From Wolfiporia cocos (lineage: Eukaryota; Basidiomycota; Agaricomycetes; Polyporales; Phaeolaceae): a DNA stretch of 64,000 nt. This document shows, piece by piece, positions 6,089-64,000 of the stretch. The stretch covers positions 744,001 to 808,000 of the forward strand of contig JACCLO010000003.1 in assembly GCA_029448655.1 (NCBI GenBank), given 5' to 3'. Below the pieces are notes generated by a model. That model was not told where the DNA came from, searched no databases, and saw only the letters and a list, made by a program, of their open reading frames with translations. Each line of letters begins with the position of its first letter. Position 1 is the first letter of the stretch. The position numbers and the translations under genes were made by a program.

Positions 6089-6102
6089 GTACCCCCTCTT
6101 TT
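6089..6102 (-). other. Polypurine tract of the 7.8 kb element
   Basis: On the minus strand the bases abutting the 3' LTR read AAAAGAGGGGGTAC, the purine run expected for second-strand priming. This fixes the element orientation. Confidence 0.7.
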
Positions 6103-11781: not shown

Positions 11782-11868
11782 CCTTGACCCTGGAGTGTAC
11801 GGGTGTAAGACCTTGACCCTGGTCGTCGGGTATAGTTGCCCTTGACCCTGGTGCGGCGGGTGTAAGAT
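11782..11868. repeat. Three 29 bp tandem repeats in the 5' leader of the 7.8 kb element
   Basis: Units starting CCTTGACCCTGG begin at 11782, 11811 and 11840. They lie about 115 bp inside the 5' LTR, where an untranslated or packaging leader would be expected. Their function is unknown. Confidence 0.8.
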
Positions 11869-11971
11869 CTACAATGCCCGGATGACCGCAGTCAAACAAG
11901 GGCGAAAGAGAAATGCACGTTGCCCCTCGTGCGCCGGGGTTGGGGAGTGGTGAACACCTCCCCGGGGGTTG

Positions 11972-11982
11972 AGACTTGTCTT
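11972..11982 (-). promoter_or_regulatory. Self-primer binding site of the 7.8 kb element
   Basis: On the minus strand, one base after the 5' LTR, AAGACAAGTCT is the exact complement of AGACTTGTCTT, which lies inside the same LTR (12076-12086 on the plus strand) about 30 bp downstream of the TATA. This is the Tf1/sushi self-priming arrangement and not a tRNA site, since no TGG follows the LTR. Confidence 0.75.
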
Positions 11983-11983
11983 A

Positions 11984-12919
11984 TGACACAAGCGCAACCT
12001 TAAGACACACACCGGGGGAAGGTGGGTCGCATGAAAGCGCCTTCCTGGTCCGGGCATCTCAAGGCACAAAAGGCCAAGACAAGTCTGAGGTTTACGCTCA
12101 AGACTGCCCGGCATATATACTCCTAACCTATTTGTACATGTTTGTGTACGGTGGCTCAGAGGCCTCTACGTACTGGTATCTAACTGGCTATGAGCTACGT
12201 GCCGGTAGTGGCATCGGAGCGCTGGGGTACGCGAGGATGTCCATGGTAACGCAGCGTAAGGGGCGGATCAAAGGAGTAGCCAGTCTATCGGGTTCGATCA
12301 GTGGTTCTCGTCGATTGTAGGTGTGCCGGTAATGGCGGGGTTCTAAGTCCGTGATCGGGCGTGGTCTGCCACGATCGGGGTGTAGCGCTCTACGACTGGT
12401 AGGGTTCTCAGTCGTGCAGAGCGTGGAGTTATTATCCCTGCCTGATGTACTCGTAGGTCAGGGTGTGTAAGGGGTATAGTATAATGTCTATGCCAGTAAT
12501 GGCGAGTGTCCGTGCGGTGGAGACGCGAGGTGGTAGGTTTAGTGTTCTGGGTCACGTGCGAGTATAGGTCGTGCCCCTAGTCGGCGTATAGCGTATTGTA
12601 CGGTGGCGGTGTAGCCTGAGTGTGTGCGCAAGGCGTACCGTCGTGCTATCGTAGCCTGTTGGACTCTAGGGGTTGACTCGTGACTCCGGGTTTTAGGGAC
12701 TAGGCAGCGTATGGCTCATGCTGCCGGGACTTGGACTGAGTTTAGGGTTAGACTGCTGGTGGCCTGCTAGTGCCCATAGTGGCCTGTATTGCGGAGGGCT
12801 TCTACTAGCGTTGCCGTGGGGTTCCAGCTGGGCTCGGATAGAGTGCTGTAGCGTGCGTATGGCGTGAGTGGGGTGCCAAGCTAGCGTGTTCTACTAGGCT
12901 TTGAAATTGGCTTGTGACA
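11984..12919 (-). repeat. 5' LTR of the 7.8 kb element
   Basis: This 936 bp LTR is the partner of 5153-6088. The minus-strand TATA at about 12113-12119 is followed by the predicted transcript start and primer segment at 12086-12076. Confidence 0.9.
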
Positions 12920-46072: not shown

Positions 46073-46204
46073 ATTGCAATACAGTGCATGTCATCTGCTT
46101 TGCTATATGTTTTATATAGAATAGCTAGGCAATGAGCAAGAAATGTGTAATTTATTAATCCAGGTTTGTGGTGTATTATAAGCTAAGTCCTTACTCATGC
46201 GCTT

Positions 46205-46365
46205 AGGAATGCGCATAGTATCACTTACCTACTGCACCAGGAGCGTGTACAGTATACGACCAAGACAGAAGGAAGGCTCAATGACGTCGAGTTAAGCACT
46301 CACCTTCCTCATATTCATTTAGAAGAGTAGAGATGCGCACAGTATCACTTACCTACTGCACCAGG
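46205..46365. repeat. About 124 bp satellite, left part
   Basis: The unit is typified by GAGCGTGTACAGTATACGAC, GAAGGAAGGCTC and TTACCTACTGCACCAGG. It continues after the TRIM at 46972. Subtracting the TRIM, units are about 123-125 bp apart. Confidence 0.8.
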
Positions 46366-46557
46366 TGTTACGAGTCTAACACGGCTGAGCCCACGGGAAG
46401 TGGTAAGCGTGTGAAACCGTTTACCCAATTAGGCAACAGGGAACATGCTTATATACCTGGAACCACAGTCTCGCCTAACCGCGAGATTACGCCCTTTTAG
46501 CGAAAAGGGCTAAATGCCTTGCATAGCACGCTGGTGGTTCTGCGTGCGACCGTAACA
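46366..46557 (+). repeat. 5' LTR of the TRIM
   Basis: 192 bp. TATA (TTATATA) lies at 46449-46455 and the primer segment AACCGCGAGAT at 46477-46487. Confidence 0.9.
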
Positions 46558-46559
46558 GT

Positions 46560-46570
46560 ATCTCGCGGTT
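46560..46570 (+). promoter_or_regulatory. Self-primer binding site of the TRIM
   Basis: ATCTCGCGGTT, two bases after the 5' LTR, is the exact complement of AACCGCGAGAT at 46477-46487, which lies about 25 bp downstream of the TATA. The 11 nt length and placement match Tf1-type self-priming. Confidence 0.75.
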
Positions 46571-46780
46571 TCCCGGTCGCAGGTTCGACTCCCGTTGTCG
46601 ACATGCGGCTGAGAGCACACCTAGTAGGCGCTTATAAACGGTGAACGGTAGCTCGGGGATTAGGTGTACGTACCACCTTTCCTGACCAATTGGGGGTGTC
46701 TCCAACGGCGAAGCGCTTGAGCCCATCGAGGGGGATGGTAGAGCATGTTGGGGACAACACACACCTTAAGCGGGAGGTAG

Positions 46781-46971
46781 TGTTACGAGTCTAACACGGC
46801 TGAGCCCACGGGAAGTGGTAAGCGTGTGAAACCGTTACCCAATTAGGCAACAGGGAACGTGCTTATATACCTGGAACCACAGTCTCGCCTAACCGCGAGA
46901 TTACGCCCTTTTAGTGAAGGGGGCTAAATGCCTTGCATAGCACGCTGGTGGTTCTGCGTGCGACCGTAACA
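46781..46971 (+). repeat. 3' LTR of the TRIM
   Basis: 191 bp. It differs from the 5' copy by a few bases only (for example in the CCGTTTACCC and TTTTAGCGAAAAGG regions). Confidence 0.9.
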
Positions 46972-47880
46972 CCAGGAGCGTGTACAGTATATGACCGAGA
47001 CCGAAGGAAGGCTCGATGATGTCGAGTTAAGCACTCACCTTCCTCATATTCGATTAGAAGAGTAGAGATGCGCGGTAAGAACCTACTCACATATTATGTT
47101 AGAAGCGTGTACAATATACGACCGAGACGAAGGAAGGCTCGATGATGTTGGGTGATGTACTCACCTTTTGCAAAAAAAAAAATAGAGCCACGCGAGTAAG
47201 TAGCCTAGTTGAGTGTTCTTGGTGAGGAACATGTAGATGCGCGCGAGGAAGTAGCCTAGCATGACGAGGAACATGTAGATGTGCGCGAGGAATTAGTCTG
47301 GCTCGACGGTCCGAGTAAGGCACAGATAGGTGCGCGAGATCTGCAATTGCAAATTCTTGTGTTCGCGTCTTCGTTTATTGGGCGTTCCGTTGGTCTTCGC
47401 GTCTTCTTCCGCTTGGCACCCCGCTGGGCGTTCCGAGAGATGATCGACCTATTGCGAGCACAGTGTGTGGGTGTACAGATGAGATGACTCGCGGGTCATT
47501 GTCACCATTGCTACAAAGTCCAAATTGGCCGTCAATGCATCAAGGATAGTATATGACCGAGACCGAAGGAAGGCTCAATGACGTCGGAATAAGAACTCAC
47601 CATTCATGTCTACGCTTAGAGGGTAGAGATGCGCGCAGTAACACTAACCTACTGCACCAGGAGCATGTACAGTATACGACCGAGACCGAAGGAAGGCTCG
47701 ATGACGCTAAGTTAGGCACTCACCTTTCTCATATGCGCTTAGAAAGGTAGAAGTGCTCACGGAAATACTCACCTAATGCATCAGGAGCGTGTACAGGATA
47801 CAACCGAGACCGAAGGAAGGCTCGATGACGTTAAGCTAAGCACTCACCTTTCTCATATGCGCTTAGATATGTGCAAGACA
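46972..47880. repeat. About 124 bp satellite, right part, with interspersed spacer
   Basis: GAAGGAAGGCTC recurs near 47001, 47128, 47564, 47689 and 47813 (the last intervals are 125 and 124 bp). Between 47165 and 47540 a different short repeat occurs (GAGGAACATGTAGATG at about 47223, 47264 and again near 47906), and GGGCGTTCCG recurs. It is non-coding. Confidence 0.75.
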
Positions 47881-48242
47881 GTAGTCTAGCCAAGGCATCT
47901 AAACGAGGAACATGTAGATGTGCGCGAGGAAGCATTGATACTAGCTTCTTCCGTTGGGCGTTCCGGTCAGTTAGCGTTCCGTTGGGCGTTCCGAGATGCG
48001 GTCAGGTGCTATCTCCTATAGTCAGATACTCTCAGCGACAAGTTAAGGTTGGAACGCGGAAAAAGCAACCGGATATGAGAGGGAGTTGTTAGGGAGTCGT
48101 GAAGCCGTGGTACATGCGTGCGAGAAAGTGGCTAACTCAAGAAGAAACGCGTGCTTGACGCGTCTGTGGCATCCGGTGCTTGCAGTTATCCACGACCCTT
48201 TACTCGATTATGCACCTTGTTTTCTGGACTATCTTTCTATAC

Positions 48243-51200
48243 ATGACTCTACGTTGCATTGACTGTGGCAGAGAAGACTTCTACAACAAGCATGGTCTTG
48301 AGAGACACCAAGGCAAGTGCCCGAAAAGTGGTAGAGTCCTCAAGGATGCCATCAGAAAGCGGAAAATGCGACAAAAAGATGTTACTCAAAGAAAATTGCC
48401 GAGAACCGAGGACGGTGGAGGCGTACTAGCACTGCACGAAGAGCTAAGGTTTGAGGAGGAGATATCTGAGGTTCGTTGACCAATTAATTACACACGCAAC
48501 TAACTCTCGCACAGATGCCAGAAGCGTCTTCGTCTACCGCAAATGATACCTTCGTATACTCTATAAGTAGGACAGGGCGAAAACGTCGAAGACCCGCATA
48601 TCTAGTCGACTGCGTGCCCACAACCGAGGAGGGCGTAGCTCTGCAGGTGCCTGGAGCGGTTACTCGACTAGACATTTCCCCGCCCACATCCCCTGCTTGC
48701 GCAAATGTCCCGGATTCTACTTCAACAACTCCCGAAAATGGCACCGTAGATTCGTCAAGTACATCCTCGTGCTACGATACAAAACCTGACAGGTTTGGTA
48801 TCTTCTGACGATATTCCGCGACCCCAAAGCATATTCCCCCAGATGCGTCGTCACTAAGCGACTTGTGCGACTCTCCTGTACTTCAGAATCCAAACCACGG
48901 TGCCGCATTATCTGTGCGACGTGCAGGTCCCCCAAATGCGCGCGATGCGCACAGTCCATTTCATCCATTCTCGAACTCCTCTGTGTATAGGTTCATGAAG
49001 TGGGATCTCGATTCATCTGGTGCCATGTCAAGGAGCAAGTCACAGAGCCTTCTAGACGACGTCCTATTTGCTCCTGATTTTGAGCTGTCTGACTTGAGAG
49101 GGCTGAATGTTGGACGAGAATGGGAACGGGTTGAATCCTCAGAAACCAGCGACCCAGAATTTTCCGCTGCAGATGGATGGAATAAAAGCTCTGTCACAGT
49201 CAGACTGCCGAAAGAGAAGGAAAAATGGGCCGACGAGAGCGAAGCGCCGCAACTGGAGGTTCCGGATGTATACCATCGTAGCCTTCTGGATATTATTAAG
49301 ACAGTCTGCCGAGATCCTGAGGCAAGCTCCTACCAGTGGATCCCTTACAAGCAGTTCTGGAGACGACCGAAGAATTCTTCCGACGGGACGGTTGATGAGG
49401 AGTCGGCAGAAGTGGACGACATCCGTGTTTACTCAGAACTGTTCAACTCTGATGCTATGCTCCTGGAGTATGAGAAAATAGGCTCCCAACCTCCTGACCC
49501 AAACGATCCTGCGGATACCGAAGTTGCAATTGTGCCGATCATGCTATGGTCAGATTCTACTCACCTCGCCAGCTTTGGTTCCGCTTCTCTGTGGCCCATC
49601 TACGCGTTTTTCGGTTTTATATCGAAATACATATGCAACAAGCCCACTTCCTTTTGCGCACATCACCTCGCCTATGTGCCATCTGTAAGTATTCGCTTTT
49701 TCTATCTATCGTGTATTTTATTAATGTGGTCATATCTCAGCTTCCTGACTTCATCCAAGATAGATATCAATCACTTTACGACACAGCTGCAACCGCCGAC
49801 GTACTACGATTTTGCAAACACGAGCTCATGAATGCCATATGGCTGCTCATCCTCAATCCAGAGTTCATGAAGGCATATGAACATGGCATTTTAGAAAAAT
49901 GCGGCGATGGTATATTACGCTGCCTATTCCGTCGATTTTTCACATATTCAGCTGATTATCCTGAGAAGTAAGGACTGAAGTTTATGATTGATCGTGTCTC
50001 GTATGCTAATGTGAATTTATTACAGGATATTACTTGCGTGCATTCGCTACCTGGCTCAATGCCCTTGCCCGCGCTGCCTGATACAAAAGGCAGATATTTC
50101 TGAGATGGGCACGCCTGCAGACACAGAGCATCGAAATATACTTCGCGTCGACACTACTTCTATTCAGAATTTGATCGATGGCGCGAGGAGGTCGGTATTC
50201 AGGAAAGGGTTTGCGCTCAATAGCAAGAAAATTACCAAGATTCTCGACCCAAAATCACTGGTGACGACTAGGGTGAGCGATGCGATGACCATAAAAAATT
50301 GCATGCTCATGGGTGTCTAGAGTGCATTTTCTCAACGACTTTCAAAGTTTGGCTTCAACTTCTACTCAATGTTTGTGCCTGACCTTCTGCATGAATTTGA
50401 GCTTGGTGTGTGGAAGGCTGTATTCACACATCTACTGCGTATTTTGTATGCAGAAGGCAAAGACAGAATCCAAATTTTGAACAAAAGGTACGGAAATTTA
50501 TGGTCGTTGTATGAATATGCTCAAGTATACAACCTAGGTTCCGCCTTGTACCCACATTCAACCACGACACAATTCGTCGTTTCACGAACAATGTGTCTGT
50601 GATGAAGCAGCTGGCTGCAAGGGACTTTGAAGATATTTTACAGGTGTGTTACAAAATACGTTATTTGTATTTCCTCGCTCACCCCCGCTCTAGTGCATCA
50701 TTCCCGTCCTCGATATGTTATTGCCACCAGAACATAACGAAGTGGTCCTCACGTTGCTGTTCGAGCTGGCTACATGGCACGCCCTTGCGAAACTACGCTT
50801 ACACACGGAGGATACCCTCACAGTCTTTACTCGCGCGACCGAGTCTCTCAGGGAATCACTCCGTGCATTTGTCAATACTACTTGCGAAGCCTATGATACA
50901 CAGGAGTTGCCTAAAGAGCACGCTGCTCGCAGCAGGCGTACTGCAGCAATGCGCAAGCGAGGTTCCGTTGTCAGCAATAGAAAAAAATCAAGGCGAGGTA
51001 AAGGGAAGGGGAAAGCGATAGACACGAACGCCAGTGGCGGAACGGCGAACGAGTTATCGAACGGGCCGAAGATTAAGAAACTAAATCTGTCAACTTACAA
51101 GCTCCATGCGCTCGCTGATTATCCGCAGGCCATCCGACAGTTTGGCACGACGGATAATTATAGCACTCAAGTCGTAAGTCATTAGTATGTTTTATATTGA

Positions 51201-51971
51201 GTCGGTCTCATTGTGCTACAGGGTGAACTTGAACATCGCCGTGGCAAGCGATGGTACGCGCGCACGAACAAGAACAAGCACGTCGGTCAGATCGCAAAGC
51301 ACGAGTGTCGCGCACGGCTGCTTCACTGCATCTCCCAAGACGAGCAGAGACGGGCACATGAGGAGGTGCTGCACGAGTCCGCGGCAATTGCTGGCAATGC
51401 GACATCATCGATTTCCAGGGCGGGCGGTTGCAGCCATTTACGCAGTGGGGTTGCGGCCGTCAAGATGACGACAAATATTCCATTGCCGGAATATTCCTCC
51501 CCTTTTGATCACTATCATATGTCTGACTATACCCCAGTTTGGGAGAATATCCCGCACTGGCTCAAGGCCAACAAAGATGACCGCGCCTTTGAGGTGAGCG
51601 ATTTTGTTTTGAAAATCACAGAATTAACATTTTTGATCATTAGAATTTTATACCTCTCCTAAAAAGCCATCTCCTGTCGCGCTTGATGGGGCGTGAGTTT
51701 GACAGCGACGAGAACGAATTCACACCCAAGGAGCACGCAACACTCGAGATTCTCGAGAACAAAATATACTTCCACAAGGTCGTGCGCGTAAACTACACTA
51801 CGTACGACATGAGACGTGACCAGGACACGATCAATCCGAGGACCCACCCGGATGTGATGGTGCTCGCTCATGAGGACGATCAGGACTACAATGGGAACAC
51901 TCACCCGTATTGGTACGCGCGCGTAATCGGAATATTTCACGTCATGGTGGAGCATACCGGTATATATTCAA
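48243..51971 (+). pseudogene. Plavaka-type (CACTA-related) transposase gene, 5' part, split by a Ty3 element
   Basis: From ATG 48243 the protein opens with a C2H2-like finger (LRCIDCGREDF with HQGKCPKSGR), then a variable region. The conserved transposase body follows: SSVYRFMKWDLDSSG; SFGSASLWPIYAFFG and CAHHLAYVPS (intron at 49684); DFIQDRY with TADVLRFCKHELM and FRRFFTYSADYPEK (intron); CPCPRCLI; NFYSMFVPDLLHEFELGVWK; NNVSVMKQLAARDFEDIL; WHALAKLRLHT; KLNLSTYKLHALADYP; EHRRGKRWYARTN; VVRVNYTTYDMRRDQD. The 5' part ends at the target site 51971. GT-AG introns fit throughout. Between 48800 and 48865 the frame is not continuous (intron or frameshift). Apart from this the only lesion seen is the Ty3 insertion. 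Terminal repeats of the transposon were not identified. Confidence 0.8.
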
Positions 51972-52679
51972 TGTTACGGGTCGAATACCCGTCCGTATAT
52001 TCGAGTCGCGAATATAAATTGTTCTTCTGCACGTAGGCACGCAGCCGTGTGCAAGGCAAATACTCGTTAGATGCCTTCGGGTCCCAAGTGAAGTCCTTAG
52101 GAGATCGGTCAATATCCAATACGCGTTAGAGGATACAATCTGTTCAGGTGCGAGTCGAGTAGAATATAAGACTCGCCTAAGTCCGAGAAGTCAATGTGCA
52201 CTTCGAGGACTTAGTCGTTCGATTGCTCGAGTGAAAAATACTGAGCGTAGTTTCCTACGTTTGAGAACGAGTATAAGACTTCTTGTTTGTACAACAAGGT
52301 CGAGCTAAAGAGCTTCGACAGTAAGTACACGAGTTTATATACTACGTTAGCTTCCAGGGGTCAAGCCTGTCCCAGATGTCACCGATACTATCTACGCTAT
52401 AGTACCAAACGTTTGATAAGTATGTAGTGATATATCCGAGACGATAGATAGGAATGATGGCGGTTGAACGCCATCTATCAGCTAATAAACGATGAACATG
52501 AAACGGTGGCAGAGTTGGATCTGCCAGTGATGAAACGTGCCCTATAGACTAGTACAACTGGGGATGCGCCCAGTAGAGTCACGAGTAGCCAGGGGAGTTG
52601 GTTGCGCGACAAGTCCCTGTATCGTATTCGACCGGTGGTGAGTTCTGCGGATATTCGAGAAATCAAAATAATCGTAACA
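51972..52679 (-). repeat. 3' LTR of the chromovirus
   Basis: 708 bp, TGTTACG to CGTAACA, next to the left TTCAA. On the minus strand it is preceded by a polypurine tract. Confidence 0.95.
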
Positions 52680-52692
52680 TCAGCCCCTCCCT
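52680..52692 (-). other. Polypurine tract of the chromovirus
   Basis: The minus strand reads AGGGAGGGGCTGA directly before the 3' LTR. Confidence 0.8.
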
Positions 52693-55375
52693 AGGCATTC
52701 GTCGGCCTCGACGAATTTCCCAAGTTCCCCTCTTCAGAGTGCCTCGGCGTCCTGTTCGTTGTAGATGTCGCCGTTCCCGCTGAGGGACGGGGTCGTAGGA
52801 GTTCGCCATACGAAGTGTTGGCGGCATTCATTCTGTCGATGACCTGGTTGATTGAGCCCACAAGTTCTGCAAATATAGTCGGGACAGTCGAGGATCCAGT
52901 GGTTAGCGGAGCCACATTGTCGACACGGCTGCTCAGGTGAGGGCCTCGCTGGTACCCGTAGGGAAGGGATATCGCGGAGGTATTCGTTATGTTGGTACCT
53001 CCAGTGGTGTGCGGCTCGGTGGAGGTTTCGTGCGGCCCATGTGGGTAGGAAGGCGGTGTCTCGTTCGTGCTCCCTCGCACCTCGCTCAAACTCCTCGCGG
53101 GTAATGCTCTGCACCGACGGAGATCGTCGAATAGGCGGCGTGCTATTCGCTCTTCGCTGTCGCGCTGGGGTAGCCCTAGGGCTCGTCGGGCGTGCAGGTG
53201 GTTCACGTCTCCCGTTGCCTCCCATACCAGAAATACGTGGCGTCGGGTCTCTAGCTCCTGTTCGGCGGGCTCTCTGAGTCTCGGTAGGCAGAGGAAATAA
53301 TACTCTATCACCCTCCATAAAATCAAACGGCCTTGCAACTCGGCGTCGTTCGTTGGGGGTGGAAAAGCGGGCGGGTCGCGGTGTGTATTCGGGTCGACCG
53401 GGAGTAACGTGCTCGCGATCCTCGAAGTCGTTGAGCGCGTGTCGTAGTCGGGCCGTTGTAGTGGCGGCCAATCGGTCGATAAGTCTGTCGGTGAGTAGCT
53501 CGAGTCCCTCTCTCTGCGATCTGATCTGCCCCTCCATTCGGACGAGGTCCTCGGTGATGTTCTGGTACGAGCTGTAAACGTGGGTGAGGTCCTGCGCGAT
53601 GTCAAAGAGGGCCGACCAGCCATCGGCTCGGCCAGCAAAAGGTCCCTCGGCCCTGTACCAGAGGAGGGCGTGTCTAATCTGTAGATGCTGGGGGGAGTAC
53701 CTTCTTGGTGGCGTACCTCTCGGTCGGCCTTCTCGACGATCTGCATCGCCGGGGGTCGCGGTACGGCGGGGAAGCTGGTGGCGAGTCGTCGACATACTAT
53801 TACTGTCCTGTTTTCGAGTGTCGGGGTTGTCCTGACTCTCGTCCTGTGGTAGTCTTTTATCAGTTCCTTGGAGTGCTCCAAGTTCGCCTCGTCTTCCCAT
53901 GAGTTGTCGGCCGTGGCATAGCCTTTCCATTTGACAAAGTACTGATGCTTCTTTCCTTTCCATCTATCAGCCAAGATGGCTTCGACCTCGTATTCTTCCT
54001 GTCCCTTGATGATATCAGGTGGCGGCCGCAAGTAATTGGGTCCGTGCACCCTTGTTTCTTTGAATGGTTTTAGTAAGGCGGCGTGGAATACCGGATGAAC
54101 TTTCCAGCTCGTTGGTAACTGTAGCCGGTATGTCGTGGGTCCCATCTTTTCTGTGATGGTGAAGGGTCCTTCTCTTTTCGGTGCCAGCTTGTTAGATTCG
54201 TAGGGGATTGTTAGGTTCTTTGCGTCGAGCCAGACCTTATCCCCTTTCTCAAGCTTCGGCAGTTCTCTGAGGAACCTCCCTGCCATTCTTTTCTGGGCTA
54301 ATTCATGCGCGATGAATGCCATCTTTCGCGCCTCTTTGATCTTCTTGATCCTGTCAACGGCGGCCGGGACGTTCCCTACTCGGTCATAATCTGGGAATCC
54401 TCTCGGGATGTATCCTAGGATTATTTCGAGTGGCGCTGGCCGGTTTTCGGTTCGTCTGGTGTTATGCGCAAATTCGACGTCTGGTAGTCGTTGTACCCAC
54501 TGAAATGGGTCGTTCATGCAATAGATGCGGAGGTACACTTCGATCTGTTGATTCATTCTTTCTGTCTGTCCGTCGGTCTGCGGATGGTACGCCGTGCTCA
54601 TTGCTGATTCTGTTCCTTGCAGCTTGCATAATTCCTTGAAAAGCTTTGATGCAAACTGCGGCCCTCTGTCTGAAATGATTTTTCGGGGGATGCCATATAG
54701 CGAGTAGATTTTTCGGTGAAATATTTCTGTGGCCTCTTCGCTCGTGATCGTTTTGTCGCATGGGGTGAGAGAGATGGCCTTGGATAGGCCATGGTTGACA
54801 ATCACCATCATGGAGTCATACTTTCCGACTCTTGGCAGGTCGGTGACAAAATCGACCGAGCACTGTGAGAAGGGGAGGGCGTCTTCCCGTGTCGGTATTG
54901 GCTGCAAAGGGGGTTTCAGCGGATTTCTATCAGGTTCCATCTGTTGACAGATTGCACAGCCCCGGACATATTCCGCTATCATTGTTCCCATGTCGGGCCA
55001 CCAAAAATGGGTCTTAACCTGTACTGTTGTACCCCAGATTCCAGGGTGTCCGGCTGGGATCGTGTCGTGGTATTTTGAGATGATGTCCCGTCGAAGGCCC
55101 TCGTCCCTTGGCACGTACATCCTGTCCTTGTAGAGCAGTATCCCGTCCGTTTGTTGCCATTCCTCTGCGGTGGTTTTTGCGGGGAATTCGCCTGTGCCCC
55201 CTAGAGCGCGGATCGCCTGTTCCGCAGATTCATCTCGATCGTTGGCGTTCTTGATTCGATCGATGATCGGGATCTGGATCGCGTGGATGACAAGTTCATC
55301 GGGGATCATGGTGATTCCCTCGTTGTCTTCGTTGCTTTCGTCTAGGTGATACAACCTGGACAGTGTGTCGGCCAT
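52691..55375 (-). CDS. Chromovirus integrase with chromodomain (3' part of pol)
   Basis: 894 codons from ATG 55375. Residues 103-143 form the HHCC zinc site (H103, H110, C140, C143). The catalytic triad is D175 (SVDFVTDLP), D236 (ISDRGPQF) and E272 (QTDGQTERMN). A GPF/Y-type module lies near residue 403 (EGPFTI). The chromodomain at about 461-512 (YEVEAILADR, FVKWKGY, SWEDEANLE, ELIKDYHR) would guide integration to modified chromatin. The last ~380 residues have no known domain and overlap ORF3 in another frame. The frame upstream of this ATG is open back to the stop at 55448 and continues RNase H sequence (WHLFLSQFDLKLQHVPG), so this is the downstream half of a single pol polyprotein cut by one TGA. 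Confidence 0.9.
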   Translation of the reverse strand: MADTLSRLYHLDESNEDNEGITMIPDELVIHAIQIPIIDRIKNANDRDESAEQAIRALGGTGEFPAKTTAEEWQQTDGILLYKDRMYVPRDEGLRRDIISKYHDTIPAGHPGIWGTTVQVKTHFWWPDMGTMIAEYVRGCAICQQMEPDRNPLKPPLQPIPTREDALPFSQCSVDFVTDLPRVGKYDSMMVIVNHGLSKAISLTPCDKTITSEEATEIFHRKIYSLYGIPRKIISDRGPQFASKLFKELCKLQGTESAMSTAYHPQTDGQTERMNQQIEVYLRIYCMNDPFQWVQRLPDVEFAHNTRRTENRPAPLEIILGYIPRGFPDYDRVGNVPAAVDRIKKIKEARKMAFIAHELAQKRMAGRFLRELPKLEKGDKVWLDAKNLTIPYESNKLAPKREGPFTITEKMGPTTYRLQLPTSWKVHPVFHAALLKPFKETRVHGPNYLRPPPDIIKGQEEYEVEAILADRWKGKKHQYFVKWKGYATADNSWEDEANLEHSKELIKDYHRTRVRTTPTLENRTVIVCRRLATSFPAVPRPPAMQIVEKADREVRHQEGTPPSIYRLDTPSSGTGPRDLLLAEPMAGRPSLTSRRTSPTFTARTRTSPRTSSEWRGRSDRRERDSSYSPTDLSTDWPPLQRPDYDTRSTTSRIASTLLPVDPNTHRDPPAFPPPTNDAELQGRLILWRVIEYYFLCLPRLREPAEQELETRRHVFLVWEATGDVNHLHARRALGLPQRDSEERIARRLFDDLRRCRALPARSLSEVRGSTNETPPSYPHGPHETSTEPHTTGGTNITNTSAISLPYGYQRGPHLSSRVDNVAPLTTGSSTVPTIFAELVGSINQVIDRMNAANTSYGELLRPRPSAGTATSTTNRTPRHSEEGNLGNSSRPTNA
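52734..53963 (-). CDS. ORF3: overlapping zinc-knuckle protein of the chromovirus
   Basis: A 409-codon frame overlaps the 3' part of pol in a different frame. It begins opposite the chromodomain; a more natural start is the MSTTRHQLPRRT methionine near 53790. The middle has a possible helical stretch (LELLTDRLIDRLAATTTARL). The C-terminus has two Cys/His knuckles (CRQCGSANHWILDCPDY and CRTCGLNQPGHRQNEC) and ends DAEAL. The same frame is preserved in the diverged element remnant at 61688-61897, including LDCPDY, TC, QPGHR and EAL with stop. This argues for selection on this protein over the pol frame. Similar double-knuckle proteins are common hypothetical proteins in Agaricomycetes. It could bind nucleic acid, an inference from the knuckles. 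Confidence 0.65.
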   Translation of the reverse strand: MERKEASVLCQMERLCHGRQLMGRRGELGALQGTDKRLPQDESQDNPDTRKQDSNSMSTTRHQLPRRTATPGDADRREGRPRGTPPRRYSPQHLQIRHALLWYRAEGPFAGRADGWSALFDIAQDLTHVYSSYQNITEDLVRMEGQIRSQREGLELLTDRLIDRLAATTTARLRHALNDFEDREHVTPGRPEYTPRPARFSTPNERRRVARPFDFMEGDRVLFPLPTETQRARRTGARDPTPRISGMGGNGRREPPARPTSPRATPARQRRANSTPPIRRSPSVQSITREEFERGAREHERDTAFLPTWAARNLHRAAHHWRYQHNEYLRDIPSLRVPARPSPEQPCRQCGSANHWILDCPDYICRTCGLNQPGHRQNECRQHFVWRTPTTPSLSGNGDIYNEQDAEAL

Positions 55376-55447
55376 GACGAGTTTCCTTCCGGGGACGTGT
55401 TGTAACTTTAGGTCGAATTGTGAGAGGAATAGATGCCATCTCGCTTG

Positions 55448-57742
55448 TCACCGATTTAGGCGCTGTGCGCTTCTCCAGTATGTCAGGTTCTGATGATCAC
55501 TTCGGATCAAGATCCGATGCGGTGCTCCTTCTAACAGATGCCGCCATTCTTCTAAGGCTCGGACTATTCCGAGTAGTTCGCGATCGTAGATTTCATAGTT
55601 CCGTTCTGTAGATGTCAGGGACTGTGAGAGATATCCCACTGGTCGTTCGCGCCCTGTTTCATCTATCTGTTTTAGCACTGCTCCTGTGGCGAACTGAGAT
55701 GCGTCTGTTTCGAGGATGAACGGTTTTTCCTTGTCTGGTGTTCCTAGTGCGGGTGCCGTTGTGAATGCCTTCTTCATGAATTCGAATGCTCTCTGTTCTT
55801 TCTCCGTCCATTGGAACCCCGTCCCCGTGACCGTTTTTGTGAGGTCTACCAGGGGTCGGGCGTGCGTAGAGTAGTGATCGATAAATTTCCGATAGAAGTT
55901 TGCGAATCCTAAGAAGGATCTGACTTCTTTGAGATTTCGAGGAGTCGGCCACTCCTTAATCCCCTTGAGTTTCGCTGGGTCCATCTGGATGTTTCCTGGG
56001 GTGATGACTAGTCCCAGAAATTCGACTCTGTCAACACCAAAGGCGCATTTTTCAGGTTTCACAAAGAGATGGTTATCCACCAATCTCTGAAGGATACGCC
56101 GTTCTCGTTCCTTGTGTGTTTTCTCGTCCTCCGAGAAAATGAGGATGTCGTCCATATAAACGAGCACCCATCCTTCGAGGATTTCTTCTTTCAGGATTTC
56201 GTTCATCATTGCCTGAAAGGTCCCGGGTGCATTGCACAATCCGAAAAACATAACCGTGGGCTCGTACAATCCTCGGTTTGTTTTGAAGGCCGCTTTCCAT
56301 TCGTCTCCCTTCTTGATCCGCACGTTGTTGTATCCTGCTCTAAGGTCCATTTTTGTGAAGATCTTTGCCCCCTTTAGCTTTTCCAGGAGCTCTGAGATTA
56401 GTGGTAAGGGATAGACGTTCTTTATCGTCCCTTCGTTCAGATATCGATAATCCTGACAGGGTCGTAGGCCGCTGTCCTTCTTTGGGACGAAAAAGAATGG
56501 TGACGCCATCGGGGACTTTGAAGGGACTATGAATCCTTTGGCCAAGTTTTCCTTTAAGAATTCGTCTAGCGCTTGCTGCTCTTTAGGTGAGAGTGCATAG
56601 ACTTTGCAGTCTTTCGGCACGAAATCGGGTTTTAATTCGATTGCGTGGTCCCATGGTCTCGACGGGGGGAACGCTGCTGCGGACTCCTTGCTGAACACCT
56701 TGGCGAAATCCAGTAGGTGTTTCGGGACCATTTCCTCAATTGTTCGTTCTGGTTTGGGGGTCTTCTGCGCGAATTCCTGGGATTTTGTCAACGCTTTCCT
56801 GACAGCGTTGATGATTTGTATCTTTGTTCGGAACTTCTTTCGCGTCTCCCCTTTCTTTCCTATGATCCTAGGGTTATCTTTCGCAAAGCGTCGGATCGCT
56901 TCGTACTCCTCGGGAGTATAGACCCGCTGCGCTGTTTCTTCTGGCTGGTCCGTGGATCCAAACCCTTTCTCCCCTCGTTCTGTTTCCTCTAGGTCCTCGA
57001 CCTCTACAATGTCGGGGGTGAGGTGCCGTTCGAAAATTATCTGGGCTATTCGCATGCCCGGGATAATTCTATGTGCCTTGTCTGAGTAGTTGAAGACGAT
57101 GGCTCCGACGTCTCCTCGGTAGTCCGAGTCTATGATTCCGGCTTGTACTACCAACCTGTGTCTGAGGGTGTTGCCTGATCGTCCGGCCAGCCTTCCATAC
57201 GATCCTTTCGGGATCTTCATTTTTACTCCTGTGGAGACGAGTTTCCATCCTCCGGCGGGAATCTCGGTTTCTTCTGCGGCATAAAGGTCATACCCCGCAG
57301 CTTCTTGGGTCCCCCTTGTTGGAATCTTTCCTTCTGGGGCCACTACCATCTCCACCATATCCATTCGGATTGTGGCTTCCTGTTTCTTTTCTTCTGCCCC
57401 TAGTATTGATCGTACATCGACTGTCTGGTCCTTCCAGTCGATAGTGGGGTTTTCGTCTTTTAGCCATCCATACCCTAGAATCATATTTTCTGTTCCGATC
57501 GATCCTACCAGGAATCGGACTTTTCTCGTTTTCTGGGTCTTCGGGTATCGTAGTAGTATGGTGGCTTCTCGGTCTATTCGCCCATCTTTGTTTTCTGTCC
57601 CGTCAACATTTTTGACGATGATCGGGTTCTTCAAGGGTTGCGTGGGCACCTTGTATTTTTCTACCACCCTGCTGTGGATGAGGTTGGACATTGCTCCTGA
57701 GTCGATTAGTGCGTTGCACTTCACGGGTTTTGCCAGCGTCAT
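55448..57742 (-). CDS. Chromovirus protease-dUTPase-reverse transcriptase-RNase H
   Basis: 764 codons from ATG 57742. The frame is open further upstream and overlaps the end of gag in the -1 frame, so frameshifting could make Gag-Pol. The protease active site is DSGA at residues 14-17. Residues about 134-264 are a trimeric dUTPase with all five motifs: [10 protein letters not shown] (148), YGRLAGRSG (182), [10 protein letters not shown] (201), GMRIAQIIF (229) and [10 protein letters not shown] (256). RT follows, with [20 protein letters not shown] and YMDD at 529-532. RNase H has [13 protein letters not shown] and RSDHQNL. The frame ends at TGA 55448-55450 after QRLNR. In relatives this position is normally an Arg before QARW, and translation is open again directly after it, so the stop looks like a recent CGA to TGA change. 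Confidence 0.9.
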
Positions 57743-57831
57743 GATTACCGGAATGAAGAGGGATCGATTCTTCTCGAACGAGGTAATTACATGTGCTGCT
57801 TTCTCGGAGGGTAAGACCGTGGGCTTCCCTC

Positions 57832-59688
57832 CTAGGCAAAATCCTGTTCTTCTACGAGCCGTGCTAGGAGCTCGGGGTTCTTGGCTTTCAGGGCCCTAAT
57901 TGCTGTGACCGCTCTGTTAGCGGTGATGTATTCAGTCTCTTCTTCGGAGACTTCTTCAATGCGAGCTTCTTGCTCGGCTTCTTCTTCTTCGGTTTTTCGA
58001 GTAGTCCGCCTAGGGCGGGCTGGCTTCTTTGGTTTCTTTGGGCAATCTCGCGACATATGCCCTGGCTGATGGCAGGTGAAACACTTGCCCTTCTTGATGT
58101 GATCGTCCCTTTCCTGGGTGGTCATTCGATCTACATCCATCGCATTCGGATCTTTCGGTGCGATTGTCTGAGGAGCGCTAGTGCGTCCGTTATTCTGGTT
58201 CGAGGCCTGCCAAGCCTTCTTCTTGATAAACGTCTTATCCCGTTTCAGGAATATTTTGTACGTATTTTCATAGTACGAGGCAGCGGACTGCCATTCGTCA
58301 ATGGTCGCCGGCAGCGGCCGTACACCGATGATGTATCGGGTCGTGTGTTCGGGTAACCCTTTCTCGAAGAGGGTTATGAGCAACGCGTTTCCGTCCGCGC
58401 TGTATCGATCGTACTGGGCCTTTCCGGCCAAGTTGTTGAATTCGGTGATATAATCATCGACGTCCTTTCTGTCCTGGGCTACTTCCAGTATTTTCTTCCG
58501 CGCCTTTTGTACCTCTTCGATGGCTCCGAAGGCCTTCTGAAAGTCTGCATCGAATTGTGCGAGACTAGGCGGGAAGAATCGTTTCGTCAGGGGGTTCGTA
58601 TAAACCCGGTGATAGTTCTGTTTCCATTGGCCCGTCTTCCCCTTGTTCGAAATATAAGAGAGGATAAAGATCACTCTCTGAACGTCATTTTGGAACGACG
58701 TTTTGTACATCGTAAACCAGGAATTGCACTGGTTTATGAAGTTCTGCATGTCGGATCGTTCCCCGTCGAACACGTCTGGGGGGTTGATCTTTATCATCGG
58801 GGGTCGATAGTACGGGTTCGGCGCCGGAGGTTGAGGCTGCGGCGCATTCGGTGGTGGAGGGCCTCCCGGGGGTCCTCCTCCTCCCGGGTATCCTCCACCC
58901 GGGTTTCCTGGATTTCCTCCGGAGTTTCCTGGGTTTCCTCCTCCAGGGTTCCCTCCTCCGGGGTTCGCGGGGGTTCCTCCTCCGAATCCTCCAGGAGGGG
59001 GGGTGTTTCCTCCTCCGAGTCCGAAGTTTCCTCCCAATCCTCCTCCGCTTGTACCTGCGGAGGTTCGTCCAAATAGGCCTGAAGGCCATGTTCCTGGGTT
59101 TGTCGTTCCCATTCCTCCGCTTGGGCTAGTCCAAGACGGATTTCCTCCGCTACCCATTCCGGGTGCGTTCTGTGGGGGGTTTCCAAAGAGGTCTGTTCCT
59201 CCAGCCACAGACCCAATCCCACTCTGCGCAAAAGCAGATATAAATCCTGGAGGGTCCTGTCCTCCGGTCTGGCTGTTATCTGTTCCTGTAAGGTTTCCAG
59301 GATTTCTCCCATCATCTCCGATGCGTTCAATTCCTGCCATTCCTGTGGCGCCCGAAGGCTGATTCGTATTTCCATTGGCATCGGAGGTTCTGTTGATGGT
59401 TTCGTTTTCGGTCAACGTCGCGGTTGACATCGGAGGGATTTCTCCGAATCGTTCGAACGCTTCACGCGTTATTTCCCAAGCGGTCGTTCTTGCGGAGGGG
59501 TATACTTCTACCCACTTCGATGCCCTATCTTCTCTCGGAATGACAACAATTCCTCCGCGGTTACGGAAGGCTCCAATGGTGTCAGTCCACTCGTATTGGT
59601 TGAGTCTGTAGACTCCCTGAATGTCCTCGGGCAAGAGTTCAATCAGTCGTGCTGGGAATTCTGGTCCAAATATCATATGCCCTTGCAC
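57832..59688 (-). CDS. Chromovirus Gag
   Basis: 618 codons from ATG 59688, about 35 bp inside the 5' LTR border. A unique N-terminal ~80 residues ([18 protein letters not shown]) are followed by a long Gly/Pro/Asn-rich linker (GGNPGNPGG repeats, residues about 200-285). The retrotransposon Gag domain follows ([19 protein letters not shown] through [11 protein letters not shown] and [15 protein letters not shown], residues about 300-450). A CCHC knuckle, [15 protein letters not shown], lies at about 535-548, then a basic and acidic tail. It ends with TAG at 57832; pol continues in the -1 frame through this stop. The capsid-forming role is from the family. Confidence 0.9.
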
Positions 59689-59710
59689 CGTGGTAGGTGA
59701 GGGAGTGATA

Positions 59711-59721
59711 AGCTCGACCTT
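59711..59721 (-). promoter_or_regulatory. Self-primer binding site of the chromovirus
   Basis: On the minus strand, one base after the 5' LTR, AAGGTCGAGCT is the exact complement of AGCTCGACCTT in the same LTR (60057-60047), about 30 bp downstream of the TATA (plus-strand TTTATATACT near 60085-60095). There is no TGG-type tRNA site. Confidence 0.8.
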
Positions 59722-59722
59722 C

Positions 59723-60430
59723 TGTTACGGGTCGAATACCCGTCCGTATATTCGAGTCACGAATATAAATTGTTCTTCTGCACGTAGGCACGCAGCTGTG
59801 TGCAAGGCAAATACTCGTTAGATGCCTTCGGGTCCCAAGTGAAGTCCTTAGGAGATCGGTCAATATCCAATACGCGTTAGAGGATACAATCTGTTCAGGT
59901 GCGAGTCGAGTAGAATATAAGACTCGCCTAAGTCCGAGAAGTCAATGTGCACTTCGAGGACTTAGTCGTTCGATTGCTCGAGTGAAAAATACTGAGCGTA
60001 GTTTCCTACGTTTGAGAACGAGTATAAGACTTCTTGTTTGTACAACAAGGTCGAGCTAAAGAGCTTCGACAGTAAGTACACGAGTTTATATACTACGTTA
60101 GCTTCCAGGGGTCAAGCCTGTCCCAGATGTCACCGATACTATCTACGCTATAGTACCAAACGTTTGATAAGTATGTAGTGATATATCCGAGACGATAGAT
60201 AGGAATGATGGCGGTTGAACGCCATCTATCAGCTAATAAACGATGAACATGAAACGGTGGCAGAGTTGGATCTGCCAGTGATGAAACGTGCCCTATAGAC
60301 TAGTACAACTGGGGATGCGCCCAGTAGAGTCACGAGTAGCCAGGGGAGTTGGTTGCGCGACAAGTCCCTGTATCGTATTCGACCGGTGGTGAGTTCTGCG
60401 GATATTCGAGAAATCAAAATAATCGTAACA
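59723..60430 (-). repeat. 5' LTR of the chromovirus
   Basis: 708 bp, next to the right TTCAA (60431-60435). It contains the promoter TATA and the predicted transcript 5' end/primer at 60047-60057. Confidence 0.95.
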
Positions 60431-61194
60431 TTCAACATCTAAAAGACCACACCACATGGATTTTCTCTGGGTGCGCTGGTTTGGACGAGATATAACAGCT
60501 CTAGGGGGGTTTCAGACACGCAGACTCCACCGCATCGGTTTTGTGCCTGATGACGATAGGAATGCTTTCGGCTTCTTAGACCCTGACAACGTTCTTCGTG
60601 CAGCTCATCTCATTCCGGCCTTCGCGGATGGACGTACAGATTGCCTTCTCAGTTCATCCGGCACCCACCAAATTCATCGTGAAGATGACATGGACTACGA
60701 AAATTATTATGTAAACATGTAAGTTGTTTGATATCTCAGTCTGACATTGGTTAATTGTTCCAAGGCATGTTGACAGGGATATGTTCATGAGATACTTAGG
60801 TGGAGGTGTTGGACACAAGGGGAGCATGTCACAAATTATTACCCTACCCCCTGCAAGTCATCCCACCGAGCGTGCACATCCCCCAATTAGCGAGAAGAGA
60901 GCCGCTCAACAAAATCTGGAACTCACTTACGAGGCTGAGGCAAATAACACAGAGGGCGAGGAAGAGGACGACGGCGGCGGGGAGGAGGAGCATGTGGCAG
61001 ATATGAGGCTCATCGAGGAGGAGCTGGACTATGGGTATCAAGTCGCCAAGGACGAAGCAGACGAGCAGTGTGAAGACGAAGAGGGAAATGGGGGGGGAAA
61101 TTACGAAGACGAGGATGGGGATTTGGGTCCTGAGGAGGACGGAGTCGACGATCTGGATGACCCGCTCGGCGAGAACGGCTTTGCACCACTTTGA
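60431..61194 (+). pseudogene. Plavaka-type transposase gene, 3' part
   Basis: After the right TTCAA the transposase resumes with MDFLWVRWFGRDITALGGFQ, RLHRIGFVPDDDRNAFGFLDPDNV, AAHLIPAFADGRTDCLL and YENYYVNM. A short intron (60718 to about 60776) follows, then DRDMFMRYLGGGVGHKG and a long acidic tail ending at TGA 61194. Leaving out the element and one TTCAA, HTGIYS at 51971 runs directly into STSKRPHHMDFLW in frame. The acidic C-terminal tail is usual for this family. Confidence 0.8.
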
Positions 61195-61687
61195 GCAATG
61201 TAAACGGTTCCTCAGATGTGCTCAGATTTCTGTAGTTCGAGCGTTCTTAACATTATGTATACCATGAATTTTACATATCGTAATTTTACATGATGGTTCC
61301 GAGGCCTCTAGGTGCGCGCCACGTTGTGTGGCATATGCCACAGGTTACAGTATATCTACATAGGTAAGCTGCGACTGCTCCTTGCAATTCATATGCCAGC
61401 CTGACTACCAAACGACAATTCTATACCAGTCTGATGATTAGTTTCCCAGTCTGGTGATTAGTTTCCCAGTCACACGTTGAGTTTGTCTGACGCTGATAAG
61501 ATACCTTCAGAGTGGCGATTGAATGCCACTCTGCTGTCGATCTTATCAGCGCTTATCTACAGAGATCAGATCCTTCCCCGATTGGCAAGTACCTCCAGCA
61601 CAGTTAAATTACCTCCAACACTGGTAAGTTGTCTCGCGTTTTGCTGATGTTAGGCGTCAATCGGATGAGCTTCTCTATGACCGCTGA
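61195..61687. other. Spacer with short repeats
   Basis: ATTAGTTTCCCAGTC occurs twice near 61440-61470. A hairpin TGATAAGAT...ATCTTATCA lies at 61493-61543, around GAGTGGCGATTGAATGCCACTC, which is itself a perfect stem (61510-61531). It could be a terminator or a transposon end. There is no gene. Confidence 0.4.
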
Positions 61688-61897
61688 TTGAATGGGACAT
61701 GTACCGACGAAGGAACATGCAGGGCCTGGCACTGGGTCCTCGACTGTCCTGATTACAGATGCCCTACCTGCAGAGTCACGCAGCCAGGACATCGCGTCGG
61801 CAAATGTGCCCCCTACCGAGTATGGATTCCCCCTCCAATGCCTCCACTCCCTGATACAGATGCGGGGTACAACGACCCTGACCCGGAGGCCCTCTGA
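61688..61897 (+). pseudogene. ORF3 C-terminal remnant of a second Ty3 element
   Basis: A 69-codon plus-strand frame with WHWVLDCPDYRCPTC, QPGHRVGKC and VWIPPP, ending DPDPEAL and stop. It aligns with the end of ORF3 in the full chromovirus (ILDCPDYICRTC, QPGHRQNEC, VWRTPT, EQDAEAL). It is followed by a polypurine tract and LTR, so it is the 3' end of an element truncated on its 5' side. Confidence 0.8.
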
Positions 61898-61952
61898 GTG
61901 GCCGTGATGCTTGGATTTCATTGAGGGTGATGAAGGCTTGAGGGGGGGGTGA

Positions 61953-62494
61953 TGTTACGACTTTACCAGGTGCACCCGAACATATTCTTTGACACCTCAC
62001 TGTGTATGAGGACTTAGCGTTCAACCGCCGTAGCCAGCACTCTATTTCTAGGGGCCTCCGTTCAACCGTAGGCCCTGTTTCATGTATAACAACCCTATGA
62101 CCACTCCCTGTGTTCGCATCGCGTTCTAGCTGATATTCTGTGTCTAACCACAGTAGTTCTATGTTTCATCCCTTGTTGCGCTCAACCGCAACCCTTCTCC
62201 TTTATTACTCATATCGTTAGCCTGATGGACTTAATAGTAGCAGTACCAAGGACACTATAACTCCGATTAACTGACCGTAGTATATAACCTGATGTAAATA
62301 CCAGTCGAGTTCCTCAGCTCGACCTTGTTGAAATACAGGGATCTTATACTCATTCTCAAAGGCTTGAGCAATTAAGCCTGCAGCTTGTATATCGACACTC
62401 TGACTCTGAGGAGTCCAACGAGTAGTGCGCTACTCAATACGCTGAGTAACTCGGTCTAGTTATTTTGCGTTGAGTGGATATTTGATCCATAACA
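61953..62494 (+). repeat. 3' LTR of the truncated second Ty3 element
   Basis: 542 bp beginning TGTTACGACTTTACC after the polypurine run TTGAGGGGGGGGTGA (61938-61952) and ending TCCATAACA. It is diverged from the 708 bp LTR, but TATATAACC (62281) and AGCTCGACCTT (62316-62326) are conserved. It abuts a hAT-like fragment. Confidence 0.8.
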
Positions 62495-62901
62495 TACCAG
62501 AACATACTAAGTACAGCCCAAAAATTGGCTATGGTGCACTGATACTTGATTTCTGAAAGTAAAATTGTATACTGAAGTCAACACACAGAAATGACACTGC
62601 AGTAACTGCACACCTCAAGTTGTATCTGATGAGATCATGTGTTGCATTTTTGTATGTGCCACAATGAGTAGCATATAACTACTGCTAAGCAGCGCTCTGC
62701 CAATAACTGGGTGATATTGAATGCACCATGCATGTGTACCATAATATGTGAGTGTTAACACTACTGGATGGGAGAATACACAACTGCATGTCAGTCAGCA
62801 AAACTAGTAATAATTGAGGACAACCTGTGTGTGCCAAGCATTGCCCAAGACAATAGCAGTGCTTCATTGTATCATAAATCAGAAGGTTTTTGGTTGTTAC
62901 T
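62495..62901 (+). mobile_element. Internal fragment of the hAT-like element
   Basis: Matches 23125-23365 and then 25209-25372 with few differences, running straight through the site where the nested element sits in the first copy. It is truncated on both sides by retroelement LTRs, so its terminal repeats are missing. Confidence 0.85.
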
Positions 62902-64000
62902 TGTCACAAGCCAATTTCAAAGCCTAGTAGAACACCCTAGGTTGACACCCCATTCACGCCTTACGCACGCTACAGCACTCTATCCGAGCCCAGCTGGAAT
63001 CCTACAGCAACGCTAGTAGAAGCCCTCCGCTATACAGGACACTACGGGCACTAGCAGGCCACCAGCAGTCTAACCCTAAACTCAGTCCAAGTCCCGACAG
63101 CAAGGCATACGCTGCCTAGTCCCTAAACCCCGGAGTCACGAGCCGACCCCTAGAGTCCAACAGGCTACAATAGCACGACGGTACGCCTGGCACAACCTTC
63201 AGGCTAAACCGCCACCGCACACTATGCTATACGCCAACTAGGGGCACGGTCTACACTCGCACGTGACCCAGTACACTAAACCTAACACCTCGCGTCCCCA
63301 CCGCACGGACACTCGCCATTACTGGCATAGACACTATACTACACCCCGTACGCACCCTGACCTACGAGTACAACGGGCAGGGATAATAACCCAAGGCTCT
63401 GCACGACTGAGAACCCTATCAGTCACAGAGCGCTACACCCCGATCGCAGCCGATCACGCTCGATCAACCTACACTATACCCGGCCCGTACTGGCCCGACT
63501 CCGATCGTGGCAGACCACGCCCGATCACGGACTTAGAACCCCGCCATTACCGGCGCACCTACGATCGACGAGAACCACCGATCGAACCCGACAGATTGGC
63601 TACTCCTTAGATCCGCCCCTTATACGCTACGTCGCCATGGACATCAGCGCTCCGATGCCATTACCGGCACGTAGCCCATAGCCAGTTAGATACCAGTACG
63701 TAGAGGCCTCTGAGCCGCCGTACACAAACATGTACAAATAGTTTAGGAGTATATATGCCAGACAGTCTTGAGCGTAAAACCTCAGACTTGTCTTGGCCTT
63801 TGACGGCTAGTGGTCCCGGGACCTGGAAGGCGCCTTTGAGCGAGCCCCCTTCCCCCGGTTGAGTGCTAGTTTGTTGCTTGTGTCATAAGACAAGTCTCAA
63901 CCCCCGGGAAGGTGTTCACCACTCCCCAACCCCGGCGCACGAGGGGTAACGTGCATTTCTCTTTTGCCCTTGTTTGACTGCGGTCATCCGGGCATTGTAG
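62902..64000 (+). mobile_element. 5' end of a second copy of the 7.8 kb LTR element
   Basis: LTR at 62902-63885 (984 bp, same family as 5153-6088, longer by small insertions), then the leader up to the window edge, matching the reverse complement of about 11872-11983. TATATATGCC lies at 63750-63759. The element continues outside the window. Confidence 0.9.
63784..63897 (+). promoter_or_regulatory. Self-primer and its binding site, second 7.8 kb element copy
   Basis: AGACTTGTCTT at 63784-63794, about 30 bp after the TATA, is the exact complement of AAGACAAGTCT at 63887-63897, one base after the LTR end (63885). Complementarity stops at 11 nt on both sides. Confidence 0.75.

Follow-up and report, generated by a model that had tools for sequence, protein, structure and literature searches.

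The window analysed here is a 64,000-nt stretch of the Wolfiporia cocos genome (contig JACCLO010000003.1, positions 744,001 to 808,000) carrying long terminal repeat (LTR) retrotransposons of three kinds: a chromovirus, a terminal-repeat retrotransposon in miniature (TRIM) and two copies of an element resembling the large retrotransposon derivatives (LARD-like element). In each of them, an 11-nt segment that follows the TATA box of the LTR, hereafter the word, is complementary to 11 nt that lie just behind the 5' LTR, hereafter the site, an arrangement that recalls the self-primed reverse transcription of the fission yeast element Tf1. The elements and the relevant parts are as follows, in window positions:

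46366..46971, + strand: TRIM element, 606 bp, with LTRs at 46366-46557 and 46781-46971 and a 5-bp duplication CCAGG
46450..46455, + strand: TATA box of the TRIM 5' LTR
46477..46487, + strand: putative TRIM primer word AACCGCGAGAT, which would form the first 11 nt of the RNA; a second copy in the 3' LTR spans 46891-46901
46560..46570, + strand: putative TRIM primer binding site ATCTCGCGGTT, 2 nt past the LTR (spacer GT)
51972..60430, - strand: chromovirus, with 5' LTR 59723-60430, 3' LTR 51972-52679 and duplication TTGAA
60086..60092, - strand: TATA box of the chromovirus 5' LTR
60047..60057, - strand: putative chromovirus primer word AGCTCGACCTT
59711..59721, - strand: putative chromovirus primer binding site AAGGTCGAGCT, 1 nt past the LTR (spacer G)
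5153..12919, - strand: LARD-like element, 7767 bp, with 5' LTR 11984-12919, 3' LTR 5153-6088 and duplication CTTAA
12113..12119, - strand: TATA box of the LARD-like 5' LTR
12076..12086, - strand: putative LARD-like primer word AGACTTGTCTT
11972..11982, - strand: putative LARD-like primer binding site AAGACAAGTCT, 1 nt past the LTR (spacer T)
62902..64000, + strand: second LARD-like copy, ending at the window edge, with LTR 62902-63885, TATA box 63750-63756, word 63784-63794 and site 63887-63897

The boundaries of the three complete elements are set by their LTR ends together with the 5-bp target duplications. The chromovirus has a Ty3/gypsy pol with a chromodomain after the integrase. Its domain matches comprise gag, protease, dUTPase, reverse transcriptase (RT), RNase H, integrase and chromodomain, the named domains including SH3_Tf2-1, chromodomain and RVT_1; Ty3 sequences top the solved-structure lists for its RT and integrase, and its LTRs are identical at 706 of 708 positions. 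The TRIM, whose LTRs align over 192 columns with 187 identities and one gap column, is shorter than 1 kb, has LTRs of between 100 and 250 bp and a purine tract, and lacks the tRNA-complementary primer site of the usual TRIM description, so that it is TRIM-like by size and structure only. The LARD-like element is a long LTR element with a non-coding interior. Coding remnants were sought in it with Pfam and tblastn and none was recognised: Pfam (E 0.01) matched none of the 17 frames of at least 90 aa that overlap it, and protein pieces of the chromovirus and of two further families described below, F2 and F3, gave nothing better than E 0.62; in the same tblastn comparison, the F2 and F3 pieces strongly match the chromovirus. 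The lack of recognised coding sequence and the identity of its LTRs at 936 of 936 positions indicate the recent copying of a non-coding element.

The initial annotation of this stretch had named four 11-nt pairs, in the chromovirus, the TRIM and both LARD-like copies, and all four are exact reverse complements (4/4). It had placed the word about 25-35 bp past the TATA box and the site 1-2 nt past the 5' LTR, which agrees with TATA-to-word distances of 27 nt (TRIM), 35 nt (chromovirus) and 33 nt (LARD-like) and with the spacers GT, G and T. The complementarity is above chance expectation and extends beyond these hand-picked cases. Loci L001-L061 and the window were scanned for an 11-nt word after a TATA box with its complement following a CA end, and this pattern scan returned the known words and, among others, two words that proved to belong to new families, F2 (L049) and F3 (L025), each with many copies. 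Between paired LTR matches, F3 has two open pieces that share a frame, 417 and 348 aa long, with RT or RNase H sequence, and F2 has an RT piece of 338 aa with further pieces in another frame. By itself the scan is weak. Its reversed-sequence control gave 25 words, four of them passing the pyrimidine-purine rule; this control is no clean null, since reversal keeps complementarity and the two entries seen 15 times correspond to the LARD-like and TRIM sites in reverse. F2 and F3 were accepted because of their LTR end and their relatives, the fetched copies being exact in 8/8 cases for F3 and in 6/7 for F2, the seventh with one CpG change. Forward scan words in L004, L010 and L024, and likewise the window tandem repeat GGCATCTGGTG, were discarded as belonging to long inverted or tandem repeats; other single scan words, such as one in L002, were left aside.

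Six word types could thus be compared: chromovirus (AGCTCGACCTT), TRIM-A (AACCGCGAGAT), LARD-like (AGACTTGTCTT), F2 (AGACTCGTCTT), F3 (AGATTTGTTCT) and the diverged TRIM-B, with the 5' word AGCCGCAACAT and a site that matches AGCCGCGACAT. In all six, the word starts with an A after a pyrimidine, 26-35 nt past the TATA box, and the site lies 1-2 nt past the LTR. In 6/6 types, neither flank continues the Watson-Crick pairing beyond the 11 nt, the position after the 11 being a potential G/T wobble in LARD-like, F2 and TRIM-B. The word matches its own site over 11 nt in five of the six types and over 10 nt, with one CpG mismatch, in TRIM-B, while the longest match between the word of one type and the site of another is 7 nt. 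A tRNA-type TGG within the first 10 nt past the LTR was found in none of the six. When the 35-nt promoter window and the 22 nt past the LTR were dinucleotide-shuffled (3000 shuffles per type), a match of at least 11 nt was reached once for the chromovirus and never for TRIM-A, LARD-like, F2 or F3.

The pairing was then followed through 104 copies: 12 of TRIM-A, 2 of TRIM-B, 14 LARD-like (13 loci and the second window copy), 8 of F2, 9 of F3, 19 chromoviruses (the window copy and 18 loci) and a site-anchored sample of 40. For TRIM-A, LARD-like, F2, F3 and chromovirus these numbers were recounted on the loci. The TRIM count omits L013, L014 and L016-L030 (3' parts, solo LTRs or reduced matches, without 5' word and site), and the LARD-like count omits L042 and L045-L060 (LTR only, or site not aligned). 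The pair is exact in 92 of the 104 copies (TRIM-A 10/12, TRIM-B 0/2, LARD-like 14/14, F2 7/8, F3 9/9, chromovirus 18/19, site-anchored sample 34/40); among the fetched chromoviruses it is exact in 15/16, a CpG change having produced a G-U wobble in the remaining one. The initial annotation had proposed that independent mutation of the two 11-mers in other copies would refute the maintained pairing. From one family or subfamily to another, word and site change jointly, yet 11 of the 104 copies have a one-sided mismatch or wobble (L007, L012, L015, L061, L071, L087, L099, L105, L106, L108 and L122, L061 also having a deletion in the site) and in L109 the word was not found. The observed one-sided substitutions are all CpG transitions, a pattern suggestive of cytosine methylation and of decaying copies.

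The first three cases were picked after reading and F2 and F3 come from a scan for the pattern itself; the site-anchored sample was not conditioned on the word. The LARD-like/F2 site, with at most one mismatch, occurs at 243 places. The 100 listed places divide, at the position that varies, into 17 A sites and 83 G sites; all 14 A sites that were new to the set and 26 of the 83 G sites were used and their upstream sequence was taken irrespective of any word, the listed sites all being free of mismatches, that is, pre-selected as intact. Among these matches listed, the exact word is present in 34/40. Upstream of the 14 A sites the word has T in 10 and C in 4; upstream of the 26 G sites it has C in 25, no word being found in the last. 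The four A/C cases carry F2-type leaders, so that a CpG change in the site is the most plausible account of them.

Compensated changes are seen in two comparisons. Relative to TRIM-A, the word of TRIM-B (L015) is changed at positions 2 and 9, as are the corresponding positions of its site. In L061 a CpG change has altered the TRIM-B word, and the site retains five letters before its deletion. In the TRIM alignment, two pairs of the 11-nt helix are changed on both sides, which is reached by 5/500 shuffles, the slid controls giving at most one. The LARD-like and F2 leaders can be aligned and differ in the helix by a single compensated change (position 6, T-A to C-G), and the four doubly changed cells of this helix are matched by 5/500 shuffles. 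A possible reading derives the LARD-like pair from the F2 pair by a CpG change that arose in the word and then passed into the site; were new sites copied from the primer, a single change plus a wobble step could account for it. Over 35 distinct leaders, inner hairpins included, 9 pairs and 57 cells are changed on both sides, versus 5.7 and 17.0 in shuffles (0/500 reach either) and at most 3 pairs and 18 cells in slid versions; nearly all of this covariation lies in the hairpins, with one pair in the word:site helix, and the structure, having been derived from a single sequence of the set, has an advantage in the number of paired cells.

Several observations weigh against the self-primed reading. 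The TRIM covariation comes from the single diverged copy L015, with part support from L061, and its helix covariation score (0.066) is below that of slide -3 (0.073). The LARD-like/F2 helix likewise scores 0.097 versus 0.119 for slide +2, and its single doubly changed pair is matched by 462/500 shuffles, although the slides that exceed the scores pair only 55.6% (LARD-like/F2, +2) and 47.1% (TRIM, -3) of cells. In the 35-leader set, further pair types number 14 against 13.7 in shuffles. TRIM-B, with its CpG-changed 5' word, reached only 6 nt in the shuffle test, and its own shuffles hit 11 nt once. Twelve of the 104 copies lack a perfect Watson-Crick pair, and identical words within one family are not independent. 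Across 30 LTRs the LARD-like word shows no variation, a property shared by 7.6% of the 11-nt windows of this LTR (15.3% of CpG-free windows), and the variability of the TRIM word and site lies at the 46th and 31st percentiles in 12 TRIMs, the word being near the middle of the element. Conservation alone was therefore dropped as evidence, the invariance of the word not being unusual.

Given the exact pairs, their fixed geometry, the compensated changes and the covariation-supported leader fold described below, we consider, with a probability of roughly 0.9, that reverse transcription is self-primed in the manner of Tf1 in coding and non-coding elements alike, including the 606-bp TRIM and the 7.8-kb LARD-like element. 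The initial annotation had suggested such self-priming, and its presence in non-autonomous elements in particular, and both suggestions are supported: the TRIM and LARD-like pairs are exact and the LARD-like element has no recognised coding sequence. The RNA would start at the word, which would form its nt 1-11, as its position suggests, at a pyrimidine-A step 26-35 nt past the TATA box. Folding would pair these 11 nt with the site behind the LTR, the RNase H of the RT would cut after nt 11, by analogy with Tf1, and the freed 11-nt RNA piece would prime minus-strand synthesis. The end of the pairing at 11 nt in each word type is compatible with a cleavage between nt 11 and 12. Word and site would drift together if each new copy took its site from the primer. 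The chromovirus, F2 and F3 would supply the enzymes, while the TRIM and LARD-like elements would retain their own primer and site in cis but depend in trans on borrowed Gag-Pol. The tips of the TRIM and chromovirus LTRs are alike (TGTTACG...CGTAACA) and LARD-like, F2 and F3 have common TGTGTCA ends; these similarities point to the chromovirus as the probable Gag-Pol donor of the TRIM and to F2 and F3 as those of the LARD-like element.

The alternative that survives best, though we hold it to be improbable, is that the pairs of the TRIM and LARD-like elements are relics and that the word of a helper RNA serves these elements as primer in trans. The LARD-like and F2 words are one base apart and might indeed cross-prime with one imperfect pair. 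Against it, all 12 matches to the TRIM-A site pattern (at most two mismatches) are TRIM loci and the TRIM-B pattern found one locus, its two further matches with two mismatches being unrelated to TRIMs; an autonomous TRIM parent with the same word was not found by these patterns, which require a GTAACA LTR end and would miss a helper with another end.

It is slightly less probable still that the words are one strand of a structural stem of the leader RNA, serving packaging, dimerisation or translation control, and that the primer is a tRNA or half-tRNA. The leader is indeed predicted to be strongly folded, and its other stems covary too. The initial annotation had proposed folding the 5' end of each RNA; in folds that begin at the word and extend 60 nt beyond the site, the word:site helix is predicted in 7/7, with 10 or 11 pairs and a mean pair probability of 0.86-0.96, and closes the predicted leader in each of them. 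Such single-strand folding indicates a possible, not an actual, structure; the folded leader joining word and site is known by prediction and covariation only. The position of the site 1-2 nt past the LTR is, however, the one required of a primer, the word lies at the expected RNA start, the pairing stops at 11 nt in every type and the tRNA-type TGG is found in 0/6, all of which favour the self-primed reading over the structural stem.

Very little weight remains for common descent as the sole cause, whereby an ancestral word/site pair would have been inherited and be decaying without maintenance. Words are mostly identical within a family, and the shared TGTTACG...CGTAACA tips of TRIM and chromovirus and TGTGTCA ends of LARD-like, F2 and F3 do suggest relatedness. 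The initial annotation had contrasted maintained pairing with shared ancestry, and this opposition holds in part: words and sites differ together between families, but the LARD-like word shares ancestry with that of F2. As a sole cause, descent is made unlikely by the compensated changes: the types differ and still match their own sites, cross-type matches do not exceed 7 nt and double changes keep the pairing. Finally, that the complementarity arose by chance and was selected by eye is barely credible, even if the first three cases were chosen after reading, since at most 1 in 3000 shuffles reproduces it in the five exact types and 34/40 of the site-anchored sample, among the matches listed, have it.

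The remaining features of interest in the window are these:

46469..46474, + strand: U3 arm TCTCGC, able to pair with the TRIM word, a possible lock on the 3' word copy (post hoc)
46574..46611, + strand: predicted hairpin past the TRIM binding site, containing a B-box-like word at 46582-46592
46766..46780, + strand: purine-rich tract ahead of the TRIM 3' LTR
61953..62493, + strand: diverged piece of a related chromovirus LTR, with the same word at 62316-62326, 35 nt past its own TATA box; a binding site was not seen

The U3 sequence upstream of the word may add to the self-primed scheme. In four of the five families it can pair with the word more favourably than shuffled sequence does (p 0.025, 0.006, 0.037 and 0.045; Fisher 2e-4, post hoc), the exception being F3 (p 0.22). 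By longest exact match, only TRIM-A (0.005) and F2 (0.044) stand out among the five, and the arm of TRIM-B, with its CpG changes, is not above shuffles (0.22 and 0.19). The arm was found in 39/40 LARD-type and 29/38 F2-type LTRs and, by reading, as GTCGAG in 14/16 chromovirus copies; between TRIM-A and TRIM-B it changed along with word and site. In the window, 46469-46474 can pair with 46481-46486, and the possible U3 pairing is also seen in L079-L094 and in LARD-like and F2 loci. In the RNA the arm could pair only with the 3' copy of the word. As the test was conceived after seeing the sequences, we keep the arm as a lead. A joint reading, which we offer tentatively and would not bet on, is that the non-autonomous elements are priming-independent parasites, with a private primer and site and only Gag-Pol from the helper, and that a U3 hairpin hides the 3' word and leaves the 5' copy to prime.

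The hairpin behind the TRIM site, predicted in the TRIM alignment, contains the word GGTTCGACTCC at 46582-46592, a B-box-like word that fits the consensus exactly. A tRNA at this place was considered and rejected: ARAGORN found none in the window and Rfam gave no match at gathering score. Direct repeats of about 124 bp flank the TRIM on both sides (window 46202-47869). Elsewhere, the overlapping TRIM matches L005 and L006 (G000:C23:2107836-2108854) have two separate binding sites, consistent with a tandem of three LTRs and two interiors. In the chromovirus, a dUTPase domain sits between protease and RT (55448-57895, - strand); dUTPase is also reported in elements of Postia placenta, at varying places (PMC2864245). 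The related chromovirus LTR is interrupted by a repeat (62494-62906) that adjoins the second LARD-like copy and has pieces recurring within 23124-25380. A reading frame of 680 aa in the window is, across 94% of its length, 98% identical to a protein of Wolfiporia cocos.

Should the self-primed reading hold, a Tf1-type element would be free of any need to match a host tRNA or the primer of a helper, and very small non-coding elements could found new families with new words. The compensated primer/site changes would offer a natural series for asking how a primer word can change, and the arrangement itself would provide a simple annotation test for fungal LTR elements without a tRNA-type site.

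Self-priming of the Tf1 type is already known, including in fungal chromoviruses. In Tf1 of Schizosaccharomyces pombe, the first 11 RNA bases are complementary to the site, RNase H cuts between bases 11 and 12, and RNA structure is involved (PMC7175516); a similar self-priming was proposed for Tj1 of S. japonicus (PMC4600332). The Wolfiporia elements have the same 11 nt complementary to a site behind the 5' LTR, but here the pattern also occurs in elements without recognised coding sequence. Self-priming has been reported or proposed in fungal, vertebrate and some plant elements (PMC4600332, PMC6317226), is likely common in the Tf1/Sushi group, which includes marY1, Maggy and others (PMC6317226), and was proposed for Tcn1 of the basidiomycete Cryptococcus (PMC7175516). 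With such chromoviruses the window element shares the chromodomain, the Ty3/gypsy affiliation and the self-priming arrangement; it differs from them by its dUTPase between protease and RT.

TRIMs have been described with a tRNA-complementary site in a paper on a bivalve TRIM, which cites the self-priming of Tf1 and others but gives no clear mechanism for its own element (PMC6934838). The Wolfiporia TRIM is alike in its size of 606 bp, its short LTRs, its site past the 5' LTR and its purine tract before the 3' LTR, whereas this site is complementary to a word of its own LTR and not to a tRNA. Three LARD families, long LTR elements classed by their non-coding interior, are described in the basidiomycete Laccaria bicolor (PMC3411680), in a paper whose main text uses neither PBS nor primer binding nor self-prim as a term. 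A report of self-priming TRIM or LARD elements was not found among the papers listed in the literature searches, which exclude most subscription papers. The Wolfiporia LARD-like element is, like those of Laccaria, long, LTR-flanked and non-coding inside, and what it and the TRIM would add to the known systems is best explained, on the sequence evidence, as a self-priming that non-autonomous elements have kept in cis.

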